Shown one piece after another: positions 60,222 to 64,000 of a DNA stretch of 64,000 bases; the first letter of the stretch is position 1; the number at the start of each line of letters is the position of its first letter. The stretch is from the NCBI RefSeq assembly GCF_003696305.1, contig NZ_RFFK01000003.1:355887-419886 (forward strand), read 5' to 3'. The notes under the pieces are model-generated. The model was not told the origin of the DNA. It ran no database searches and saw only the letters and a list, made by a program, of their open reading frames with translations. Both the position numbers and the translations under genes were made by a program. This stretch comes from Pseudomonas sp. AOB-7 (GTDB lineage: Bacteria > Pseudomonadota > Gammaproteobacteria > Pseudomonadales > Pseudomonadaceae).

Positions 60222-60533
60222 TTATCGATAGGCCCCGGCGATACCGCGGCGCTGCTCCAGGCACTCGGCCGCACCCAGCTCGAATTCGCGGCAGATCAGC
60301 GGGCGCACTGCGTAGATGGTGCAGCGCATGCTGTCGCGATCCAGCGCCGCGCACCAGCCGTCGTCCAGGCGGCGCATCACCTCGCCGCCCCACTGGTCGG
60401 TATCGATATAGCGCGGCGGCACGCCGCTGTCGCCGAACAGCATCACTTCCAGCTGGCAGCAGCAGGCCGCGCAGGTGCTGCAGCTGACTTCGGGCTCGCT
60501 CGGCAATTGGCTGTGGGGGATGGTCTGGCTCAT
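60222..60533 (-). CDS. YkgJ-family cysteine-cluster protein
   Basis: A 103-residue protein of the CxxCxxCC family (UPF0153), thought to bind zinc or an iron-sulfur cluster. The cluster CSTCAACCCQLEV is at about residues 18-30, and more cysteines follow: GWCAALDRDSMRCTIYAVRP and LICREFELGAAEC. ATG 60533 starts MSQTIPHSQLPSEPE. It is transcribed toward pagL. Specific function is unknown. Confidence 0.82.
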   Translation of the reverse strand: MSQTIPHSQLPSEPEVSCSTCAACCCQLEVMLFGDSGVPPRYIDTDQWGGEVMRRLDDGWCAALDRDSMRCTIYAVRPLICREFELGAAECLEQRRGIAGAYR

Positions 60534-60669
60534 GGCGCGGCAGTGTACGCCAAGGCTCGCCGTCGTGGTGTGCGGACGGCTGAGCGGTTCGCGGCGCCGG
60601 TTGGCGCTGAGCGTAGCGAAGCCCAACAGCGAGCGCGCAGCGCTCCGCCCGTCGATCTCAAGGCCGAAT

Positions 60670-61197
60670 CTACGCCGCTCGCCGGCTACGCAGACTCTGT
60701 TCGTACTGGGCGCGATACAGCCGGGCGAAGCCGTGCAGCACCGGCATCGCCACCGCCCAGACCGCGGCGAGGATGGCCAGGGTCGGCCAGGTGCCCAGCG
60801 GCAGGCCGACGTCGGCGATCTGCGCGCCGCCGTAGTAGGACAGCGGCGCCGCCAGCGCGCCGAGCAGGCTGCCTTTCCACCAGGGCTGCGCGGTCCAGGC
60901 CAGGCAATGGTTGAGGGTGCTGGCCAGCAGCAGCCAGAGCAGCGCCAGCCACAGCGGGATCAGTTGGCGCGGCTCGCCGAAGTCGAACAGGCCGAGGTTG
61001 AGCAGGAAACTGTCCAGCGCGCTGCCGGCGAGAAACACGCTGAGCAGCAGCTTGCCTTCGGCCGCCCAACTGCTGACCCACAGCAGGTGCACACCGATGA
61101 TCACTGCCACCAGCAGCAGCCAGGGGCTGTCGCCGGCGAAGACGCAGACCAGCCAGCCGAGCTGGAAGAGAAGGGCGTTGGCGATCAGTTTAGGCAT
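60670..61197 (-). CDS. DUF2878 membrane protein
   Basis: A 175-residue inner-membrane protein with about six helices, starting MPKLIANALLFQLGWLVCVF and containing DSFLLNLGLFDFGEPRQLIP and NHCLAWTAQPWWKGSLLGAL. The family is unassigned but is repeatedly found in the same operon as Cfa-like methyltransferases and DUF1365 proteins. The start overlaps the stop end of the methyltransferase by 8 bases, which supports a joint role in membrane lipid modification. Confidence 0.83.
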   Translation of the reverse strand: MPKLIANALLFQLGWLVCVFAGDSPWLLLVAVIIGVHLLWVSSWAAEGKLLLSVFLAGSALDSFLLNLGLFDFGEPRQLIPLWLALLWLLLASTLNHCLAWTAQPWWKGSLLGALAAPLSYYGGAQIADVGLPLGTWPTLAILAAVWAVAMPVLHGFARLYRAQYEQSLRSRRAA

Positions 61198-62464
61198 CGA
61201 AGTTTCCTAGCAGAGGGGCGGGCCGCGCGGCCGGCTTGGCCAGCAGCAGTTGCGCGGTGCCAATGGTGCGTTCGAGGAAGCCTCCCTCGCAATAGCACAG
61301 GTAGAACTCCCAGAGTCGGTAGAAGTAGTCGTCGTAGCCCAACTGCTCCAGGCGCTGGCGGGCCTGGCGCAGGTTGTCGTGCCACAGGCGCAGGGTACGC
61401 GCGTAGTGCAGGCCGAAATCTTCCATGTGATGCAGGTTGAAGTCGGTATGGCGGGTGACCACGTCGAGCATCTTCTGTACCGAGGGCAGCGCGCCGCCGG
61501 GGAAGATGTAGCGCTGGATGAAGTCCACCGACTTGCAAGCCTGCTCGTAGCGTTGATCACGGATGGTGATGGCCTGCAGCAGCATCAGCCCGTCGGGCTT
61601 GAGCAGGCGCGCGCACTGCTGGAAGTAGGTGGGCAGAAAACGGTGGCCGACCGCTTCGATCATCTCGATGGAGACCAGCTTGTCGTACTGGCCCTCGAGG
61701 TCGCGGTAATCCTCCAGCAGCAGGGTGATGCGATCCTCCAGGCCCAGCTCGCGGATGCGCCGTGCGGTATGGGCATGCTGCTCGCGCGACAAGGTGGTGG
61801 TGGTCACCCGGCAGCCGTAGCGGGTGGCGGCATGGATGGCCATGCTGCCCCAGCCGGTGCCGATCTCCAGCAGGTGGTCGGATGGCCTGAGCGCCAGCTT
61901 CTGGCAGATGCGCTCCAGCTTGTTGAGCTGCGCCTGCTCCAGGCTGTCATCCGCGCCTTTGAACATGGCCGCCGAATACATCATGGTCGGGTCGAGGAAC
62001 TGCTCGAACAGTTCGTTGCCCAGGTCGTAGTGCGCGGCGATATTGCGCCGCGAGCCCTGGCGGGTGTTGCGGTTGAGCCAGTGCAGGCCCTGGATCAGCG
62101 GCCGGCCGAGTTGCGCCAGGCCGCGCTCCATGGCGTCGAGCACCTCCAGGTTGGCGACGAAGATGCGGATCACCGCGGTCAGGTCCGGGGTGCTCCAGTA
62201 CCCGTGGATATAGGCCTCGCCCGAGCCGATCGAGCCGTTGCCGGCCACCAGGCCCCAGACCGCGCCGTCGAGCACGCGGATTTCGCCGCGCAGGCTGGCC
62301 TGCGGGTCGCCGAAGTGCAGGGTCTCGGCGCCCTCGTGGATGGTCAGCCGGCCATGGCGCAGGCGACCCAGCTGGCGCAGTACGGCGCGGCGCAACAGGC
62401 CGGCACCGAGGCCGCTGCCGGCACGCACGCTGTCTTTGGCGGAGGTCAGGCTAGAGCTTTTCAT
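61190..62464 (-). CDS. Cyclopropane-fatty-acid-synthase-like methyltransferase
   Basis: SAM-dependent methyltransferase acting on unsaturated acyl chains of phospholipids, 424 residues. The N-terminal lipid-binding domain includes TLHFGDPQASLRGEIRVLDG. SAM-binding motif DHLLEIGTGWGSMAIHAATR, then VTTTTLSREQHAHTARRIRE, VSIEMIEAVGHRFLPTYFQQ and IQRYIFPGGALPSVQ are all Cfa-type. A conserved Cys lies in LYYCEGGF-like YLCYCEGGFLERTIG. It overlaps DUF1365 by 14 bases. Whether it makes cyclopropane or a methyl-branched product (UfaM type) cannot be told from sequence alone. Confidence 0.88.
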   Translation of the reverse strand: MKSSSLTSAKDSVRAGSGLGAGLLRRAVLRQLGRLRHGRLTIHEGAETLHFGDPQASLRGEIRVLDGAVWGLVAGNGSIGSGEAYIHGYWSTPDLTAVIRIFVANLEVLDAMERGLAQLGRPLIQGLHWLNRNTRQGSRRNIAAHYDLGNELFEQFLDPTMMYSAAMFKGADDSLEQAQLNKLERICQKLALRPSDHLLEIGTGWGSMAIHAATRYGCRVTTTTLSREQHAHTARRIRELGLEDRITLLLEDYRDLEGQYDKLVSIEMIEAVGHRFLPTYFQQCARLLKPDGLMLLQAITIRDQRYEQACKSVDFIQRYIFPGGALPSVQKMLDVVTRHTDFNLHHMEDFGLHYARTLRLWHDNLRQARQRLEQLGYDDYFYRLWEFYLCYCEGGFLERTIGTAQLLLAKPAARPAPLLGNFDA

Positions 62465-63251
62465 AGGGCAGGTCCTTCGGTTGCGGGCGGGCGACGCGGA
62501 AGTCGCCTTCCGCGGCCTGGTGAGCGAACAGGGGCGCGCGTTTGAGCAGCAGGCGCAGGGCCTGCCAGTAGATGGCCGCGAGGGTCTTGGCGGTCATCCA
62601 GGGGAAACTCAGCAGATGGCGGTGCAGGCTGGCGCGGCTCAGGGGCTGGCGCTGCAGGCTGAGGCTGGCGTCGAAGAGCTTTTCCTCGCCGTTCCAGTCG
62701 GCCATATGAATGCCCAGGCGCTCGCCCACCGGGCTGAAGCTCATGCGGTACTCAAGCTCGTGCGGCAGAAAGGGCGAGACGTGGAAGGCCTTGGCCACGC
62801 TGAACTGCTGCCGCCCAGTGCCGGCTGCCGGCAGCACGTAGTGATAGCGCTCGCGCCAGGGCGTGTTGCTCACTTCGCAGAGGATCGCCAGCAGTTGCTC
62901 GTCGGCGTCGAAGCAGTAGAAGAAGCTCGCCGGGTTGAACGCCAGGCCCCAGCTGCGCGGCTGGGTCAGCAGGCAGATGCGCCCCAGCGGGCGCCGGCCG
63001 ATGGCCTGCTCGACGCGCTGGCGCACCGCCTCGGCCAGGGGCATGCCGCCGCGGGTGAATTGCGGCAGGTAATCGGACTCGCGAAAGGCGAAGGGCATCC
63101 AGCGGCTGCGCCCGGCCAGCTTTGAGAGGGCGAACAGGGCGTCCTGCTCGTCCAGATCGAGGTAGAGCAGGCCCATGCGGTAGCGGAAGGCGTGCGCGCG
63201 CGGGGCGAAGCGCCGATGCTGCACCCAGCCGCTGTACAGGGCGCTGTGCAT
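62451..63251 (-). CDS. DUF1365 family protein
   Basis: A 266-residue protein of unknown function, usually beside Cfa-like enzymes. It starts MHSALYSGWVQHRRFAPRAH and contains YRMGLLYLDLDEQDALF, LLTQPRSWGLAFNPASFFYC (the family core, NPXSFYYC-like), VSNTPWRERYHYVLPA and HVSPFLPHELEYRMSF. It overlaps the FAD oxidoreductase stop by one base and the methyltransferase start by 14. The core suggests binding of an acyl substrate, but no reaction is established. Confidence 0.88.
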   Translation of the reverse strand: MHSALYSGWVQHRRFAPRAHAFRYRMGLLYLDLDEQDALFALSKLAGRSRWMPFAFRESDYLPQFTRGGMPLAEAVRQRVEQAIGRRPLGRICLLTQPRSWGLAFNPASFFYCFDADEQLLAILCEVSNTPWRERYHYVLPAAGTGRQQFSVAKAFHVSPFLPHELEYRMSFSPVGERLGIHMADWNGEEKLFDASLSLQRQPLSRASLHRHLLSFPWMTAKTLAAIYWQALRLLLKRAPLFAHQAAEGDFRVARPQPKDLPYEKL

Positions 63252-64000
63252 CACAGCGCCTCGCCGAAGGCGCGGGCCACGCGCAGCGCGCTGAGCACGC
63301 CGTCCTCGTGGAAGCCGTTGGCCCAGTAGGCGCCGCAGTAGTAGCTGTGCTGGCTGCCTTGCAGCTCTTCCCAGCGCGCCTGGGCGGCGATGCCGGCCAG
63401 GCTGTACTGCGGGTGGGCGTAGCGAAAGCGCGCGAGCACCTTGGCCGGGTCGATGGCCGCGCCCTGGTTGAGGCTGACGCAGAAGGTGGTATCGCTGTCG
63501 ATACCCTGCAGGATGTTCATGTTGTAGGTGACCGCTGCCGGTCGATCGGTCGGCCCGCCCAGGCGGTAGTTCCAGCTGGCCCAGGCCAGCTGGCGCCGGG
63601 GCAGCAGGCGCGTATCGGTATGCAGCACCACCTCGTTGTCGGCGTAGGGCAGGGCGCCGAGGATGGCCTGTTCGGCGGCGCTGGGCCCTGCCAGCAGGGC
63701 CAGGGCCTGGTCGCTGTGGCAGGCGAATACCACCTTGTCGAAGCGCTCGGCGCCGGCGGCGCTGTGCAGGGTGACGCCGCCGGCATCGCGCTCGACCCGC
63801 TGCACCGGGCAATTGAGCCGGATGCGCTCGGCGAAGCTGGCGCTCAGCGGCGCCAAGTAGCTGCGCGAGCCGCCGGCGATCACCTGCCACTGCGGGCGGT
63901 CGCTGATCGACAGCAGGCCGTGGTTCTTGCAGAAGCGCACGAAGAACTGCAGCGGAAAACCGAGCATGCCGGCCAGCGACATCGACCAGATCGCCGCGCC
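63251..64000 (-). CDS. FAD-dependent amine-oxidase-like oxidoreductase (N-terminus outside window)
   Basis: The C-terminal 249 residues of a flavoprotein of the amine oxidase/phytoene-desaturase group; the frame remains open to the window edge and reads GAAIWS just before the first in-window Met, a typical internal segment. Visible parts are LLSISDRPQWQVIAGGSRSY, FDKVVFACHSDQALALL, NEVVLHTDTRLLPRRQLAWA, and the end YCGAYWANGFHEDGVLSALR, which binds FAD. It is the first visible gene of an operon with DUF1365, a Cfa-like enzyme and DUF2878. Desaturation of an acyl chain (UfaD-like) is the likely type of reaction. Confidence 0.85.
   Translation of the reverse strand, partial: GAAIWSMSLAGMLGFPLQFFVRFCKNHGLLSISDRPQWQVIAGGSRSYLAPLSASFAERIRLNCPVQRVERDAGGVTLHSAAGAERFDKVVFACHSDQALALLAGPSAAEQAILGALPYADNEVVLHTDTRLLPRRQLAWASWNYRLGGPTDRPAAVTYNMNILQGIDSDTTFCVSLNQGAAIDPAKVLARFRYAHPQYSLAGIAAQARWEELQGSQHSYYCGAYWANGFHEDGVLSALRVARAFGEAL

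Follow-up and report, generated by a model that had tools for sequence, protein, structure and literature searches.

What the four coupled genes at the end of the window produce, and under which conditions, is the question raised by this locus of Pseudomonas sp. AOB-7, where the window is the whole stretch of 64,000 nucleotides that was analysed. The first-pass annotation had proposed a furan fatty acid pathway, an idea that is well borne out, with the FAD protein corresponding to UfaD, the DUF1365 protein to UfaO and the "Cfa" protein to UfaM. The genes are very probably the 3′ half of a photo-oxidative stress operon, switched on by blue light, whose enzymes produce methylated furan fatty acids on membrane phospholipids. 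This reading draws on the observed gene identities and orthology, the promoter with its LitR boxes, the presence of genes for a LOV protein and a second LitR, and the co-occurrence pattern across genomes. Such an operon would be a widespread light and singlet-oxygen response of non-phototrophs tied to a specific lipid product that is detectable by routine FAME analysis.

A nine-gene operon extending past the window

Four minus-strand open reading frames lie at the end of the window with exactly the overlaps described previously, of 1 base between ufaD and ufaO (TGATG), 14 bases between ufaO and ufaM and 8 bases between ufaM and the DUF2878 gene, and their Pfam families are confirmed by matches far above cut-off. 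The ufaD gene is cut by the window edge; its 5′ end is located 498 bases past the window and the complete gene encodes 415 amino acids. The contig runs on past the window in locus L009 (G000:C23:414000-430000; window position = L009 position + 58113), and a search beyond base 64000 for the predicted neighbouring phr and MerR genes recovered photolyase, SDR and MerR genes, together with SnoaL and RudS genes, upstream of the FAD gene. The resulting nine-gene operon has the order RudS, LitR/MerR, PhrB, SnoaL, SDR, UfaD, UfaO, UfaM and DUF2878, of which the window holds the last four (Table 1), and each gene shares between 1 and 14 bases with the next along its whole length. As the arrangement recurs across Pseudomonadota, it is not a product of chance.

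Table 1. Genes of the operon, in order from the promoter, with positions in locus L009 and in the window
Gene or product	L009	Window	Strand	Basis
RudS (operon's first gene)	10894-9944			Pfam
MerR/LitR	9954-8989			Pfam
PhrB photolyase	9001-7565			Pfam
SnoaL_2	7568-7146			Pfam
SDR	7149-6382			Pfam
ufaD (putative FAD-dependent amine-oxidase-fold desaturase; 3′ part in window)	6385-5138	63251..64000	-	Pfam Amino_oxidase, 81.5 bits
ufaO (DUF1365 protein, 266 aa, predicted furan-forming oxygenase)	5138-4338	62451..63251	-	Pfam DUF1365, 264 bits
ufaM (CMAS/Cfa-family methyltransferase, 424 aa)	4351-3077	61190..62464	-	Pfam CMAS, 303 bits
DUF2878 membrane protein (175 aa, operon's final gene)	3084-2557	60670..61197	-	Pfam DUF2878, 138.5 bits

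The closest described system is the operon PME6650-PME6610 of P. mendocina NBRC 14162, which has nine genes with the same annotations in the same order and for which no substantive difference from the AOB-7 operon was found; its description leaves the DUF1365 and DUF2878 products as hypothetical proteins (PMC9758184). In P. mendocina, phrB and ufaM are upregulated 25-33 fold in light, and P. putida KT2440 carries a counterpart of this operon (PMC9758184). Light-responsive operons have been reported to encode RudS, a tRNA 4-thiouridine desulfidase (PMC11417400).

Downstream of the operon, a dispersed and possibly REP-like repeat of ~55-60 bp (window 60600-60660) recurs roughly 25 more times in the genome with about 80-95% identity, and a small gene of CxxCxxCC type on the minus strand (window 60222-60533) encodes a putative zinc/iron-chelating protein.

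Promoter and predicted light control

The region ahead of rudS contains a promoter, TTGACT-N16-TATGAT (L009 10976-10949), that is identical to the published P6650 of P. mendocina (PMC9758184). Two LitR boxes of the form TGTACA-N12-TGTACA accompany it, box 1 overlapping the -35 element (L009 10965-10988) and box 2 downstream of the -10 element and ahead of the start codon (L009 10915-10938), in the same placement as the two P. mendocina boxes. The 4.9 Mb genome contains five sites with this pattern, against none for a reversed control pattern. A second LitR (39% identical) is encoded together with a short LOV protein on another contig (C45), and the corresponding LitR2 and short LOV genes of P. 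mendocina likewise lie together and unlinked to its operon (PMC9758184). The core of the AOB-7 LOV protein reads DCRFLQ, and a genome search with the strict LOV motif NCRFLQ returned nothing. AOB-7 has the components of a class II LitR/short-LOV regulon, with boxes at a sigma70 promoter, a litR gene within the operon and unlinked genes for LitR2 and a short LOV protein. By analogy with tested orthologues, class II LitR repressors would occupy the two boxes at this single promoter in the dark, and an activated short LOV protein would remove them in the light.

Other LitR boxes are found elsewhere in the genome. A third box, 1.3 kb further on (L009:12327-12350), is flanked by an FAD oxidoreductase gene and by an NAD-epimerase-type gene that is transcribed divergently and followed by a ferrochelatase-like gene, and likely marks a further light-controlled unit next door. 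A perfect box also closely precedes a chemoreceptor gene in the vicinity of acetyl-CoA synthetase (G000:C1:650883, locus L016), and suggests a possible light control of chemotaxis.

Enzymes of the predicted pathway

The likeness to the Rhodobacter UfaM, UfaD and UfaO proteins put forward earlier reflects true homology of all three, which is full length with R. sphaeroides RSP2144 (ufaM) and RSP1091-1090 (ufaD-ufaO) and with RPA2569-2571 of Rhodopseudomonas palustris (PMC7380195). The reference used for comparison is the sister species Cereibacter johrii (locus L198), as the scan of ChrR-linked loci did not hit the R. sphaeroides 2.4.1 record. Its ChrR is 96% identical to that of R. sphaeroides, and the genes behind its ufaD encode proteins of 249, 401, 186 and 245 amino acids, the lengths published for RSP1090-RSP1087 (PMC7380195). 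Identities to the C. johrii proteins are 39.6% over 417 amino acids for UfaD, 36.6% over 238 for UfaO and 39.8% over 389 for UfaM.

In R. sphaeroides, ufaM, ufaD and ufaO suffice for furan acid formation, UfaD and UfaO have been demonstrated in vitro, with UfaO converting the methylated diene to the furan, and O2 is the source of the ring oxygen (PMC7380195). Extended from these tested orthologues to AOB-7, UfaM would methylate cis-vaccenoyl chains from SAM and shift the double bond to give 11Me-12t-18:1, the flavin desaturase UfaD would introduce a second, trans double bond to give 11Me-10t,12t-18:2, and UfaO would insert O2-derived oxygen to close the furan, yielding a lipid expected to scavenge singlet oxygen. 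As UfaO carries the DUF1365 domain, this family has a known reaction, so that the earlier statement that DUF1365 and DUF2878 have no known reactions holds for DUF2878 and fails for DUF1365. Nor is the cluster the best candidate for undescribed chemistry that it had been taken for, as both the reactions (PMC7380195) and the Pseudomonas operon with its light control (PMC9758184) are already described. Among the papers searched, none was found to report that a Pseudomonas makes furan fatty acids through this operon.

With identities of just 37-40% to the Rhodobacter-type enzymes, chain length or product could differ in AOB-7. The same divergence would allow a pathway whose end product is a methyl-branched acid with one or two double bonds, or another oxidised lipid, through functional drift of UfaO or UfaD, but the retention of the invariant UfaO residues and the joint conservation of UfaD, UfaO and UfaM across classes make this improbable. 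The residues in question, H12, R14, P107, Y138, K154, S159, P160, Y168 and I227, are found in 100% of 134 UfaO sequences and are all kept in the window protein, and UfaD adjoins UfaO in every DUF1365 locus retrieved. The UfaO model (pLDDT 88) is a beta-barrel with C-terminal helices for which Foldseek gave no match under E 0.001; VIA-align gave middling matches to nitrobindin/FABP-like barrels (best Z 7.1, 137 residues at 4.3 A), which are not strong enough to point to a cofactor. Sequence comparison found no solved relatives of UfaO or DUF2878.

The TmsAB pathway to 10-methyl branched fatty acids likewise combines a Cfa-like methyltransferase and a flavoprotein, TmsA, which is of the FAD_binding_4 type. 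The window flavoprotein has an Amino_oxidase fold, for which Pfam gave only Amino_oxidase, NAD_binding_8 and DAO matches and none to FAD_binding_4, and TmsAB-type pathways are not known to include a DUF1365 protein. A TmsA/TmsB-like function was therefore rejected on the grounds of the wrong flavoprotein family, and its probability is negligible.

The methyltransferase might instead be an ordinary cyclopropane synthase, with the flavin protein and DUF1365 acting on something else. It belongs to the CMAS family and its nearest NCBIfam model is Cfa (PRK11705), but the score of 288 bits falls below the cut-off of 400. A quick-method tree was built from 76 CMAS rows. A branch with support 98 sets apart all 64 UfaM-type rows, comprising the window protein and 63 others including C. 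johrii UfaM, whereas E. coli Cfa and the two other full CMAS proteins of the AOB-7 genome fall outside it. These 64 rows consist of 56 operon-linked proteins (window protein included), five from Rhodobacteraceae (three of them Cereibacter or Luteovulum) and three repeat copies.

The active site separates the two groups further. In E. coli Cfa, the catalytic bicarbonate is held by Glu239, His266 and Tyr317 (PMC11387697). The His266 position is Gln in 64/64 UfaM-type rows and His in 10/10 Cfa rows, with the Glu239 and Tyr317 positions kept in all 64, and the Cys139 position is Ser, Ala or Gly (Cys in one case) in the UfaM-type rows and Cys in 10/10 Cfa rows. The window protein has Q297 at the His266 position and A165 at the Cys139 position, and thus lacks the full set of Cfa bicarbonate ligands even though E270 and Y354 are retained; the two separate Cfa genes of the genome keep both His and Cys. 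Based on these residues and the tree position, the ordinary cyclopropane synthase was rejected as highly unlikely.

For UfaM itself, we infer that the altered base site would favour loss of a neighbouring proton of the chain, giving a branch and a shifted double bond, over ring closure, an explanation that was not found stated in the literature examined. Gln at the His266 position is proposed as a one-residue test for separating UfaM from mis-annotated Cfa in genomes, although it is not unique to UfaM, as a distant CMAS paralogue (L315) shares it. When expressed in E. coli, the UfaM of a Halomonas with consecutive ufaD, ufaO and ufaM genes produced 11-methyl-octadecenoate, in cells that also had cyclopropane acids, as did the cfa strain (PMC12089945).

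Many gammaproteobacterial operons have SnoaL and SDR genes upstream of ufaD, and the two encoded proteins may have oxidised furan products as substrates. As the R. sphaeroides SDR gene RSP1087 is dispensable for furan synthesis (PMC7380195), both may act after that synthesis.

DUF2878 and distribution of the gene set

The genes surrounding the three enzymes vary between bacteria. In R. sphaeroides, ufaM is unlinked, control is by RpoE/ChrR and MFS, DUF3833 and SDR genes lie behind ufaO (PMC7380195), unlike the single AOB-7 operon, predicted to be under LitR control, with its photolyase, RudS, SnoaL, SDR and DUF2878 genes. The ufa cluster of Halomonas sp. YLGW01 resembles AOB-7 in its consecutive ufaD, ufaO and ufaM genes (PMC12089945). 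Much of this gene set, as far as annotation goes, is also present in Shewanella SO_3386-SO_3374, which depends on RpoE2/ChrR, in the Vibrio VC1123 region and in Aeromonas RS13645-13670, with annotated NTF2/SnoaL, SDR, FAD, DUF1365, cfa and DUF2878 genes; the respective papers assign no product to it (PMC4336711, PMC12971978, PMC10012899).

Across 299 Pseudomonadota genomes, DUF1365 is present in 94 (two as fragments) and DUF2878 exceeds the cut-off in 45, of which 44 are strong matches and one (G139) is a partial match of 36 bits. All 44 genomes with strong DUF2878 also hold DUF1365, compared with 13.5 expected (p about 3e-27, ignoring kinship). The DUF2878 gene directly follows ufaM in 30/44 genomes and sits elsewhere in the other 14, mostly far off, beside SDR, DUF3833, chalcone-isomerase-like or other genes, so the association with DUF1365 does not merely reflect operon inheritance. 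UfaO is found in 74/80 ChrR-linked loci and in 218/248 Rhodobacteraceae genomes, and as the Cereibacter operon is without DUF2878, this protein is not essential to the chemistry everywhere.

These data single out DUF2878 as a pathway-linked protein without an assigned function. Its hydropathy suggests about 4-6 membrane helices, residues W15, G58, P81, W88 and W147 are invariant in 33 sequences, and a model of the protein alone was poor (pLDDT 58). Deletion of VC1123, the V. cholerae DUF2878 gene, altered colonisation and transcription, with lipids not mentioned (PMC12971978). At a guess, DUF2878 would be a membrane accessory of the pathway. A tentative, somewhat doubtful proposal combines two elements. 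In the first, gammaproteobacteria would use DUF2878 as a membrane component, so far undescribed, in making or repairing furan fatty acids (e.g., a partner bringing electrons or lipid to UfaO/UfaD, or handling oxidised furan lipids), needed in Pseudomonas, Vibrio, Shewanella and relatives and not in Rhodobacter. In the second, replacing His by Gln in the bicarbonate site of Cfa would be what converts a cyclopropane synthase to the methyl-branching UfaM.

Two further loci place DUF2878 in other surroundings. In L084 (G254), genes for an ECF sigma factor, RudS, photolyase, SnoaL, SDR, UfaD and DUF2878 occur in one stretch, the same module apparently wired to an RpoE-type system. In L059 (G111), DUF2878 is flanked by DUF1295 and by a second methyltransferase, a distant member of the CMAS family, and DUF6134, lipocalin and ufaD-O-M genes lie nearby, a group that may further modify the furan lipid.
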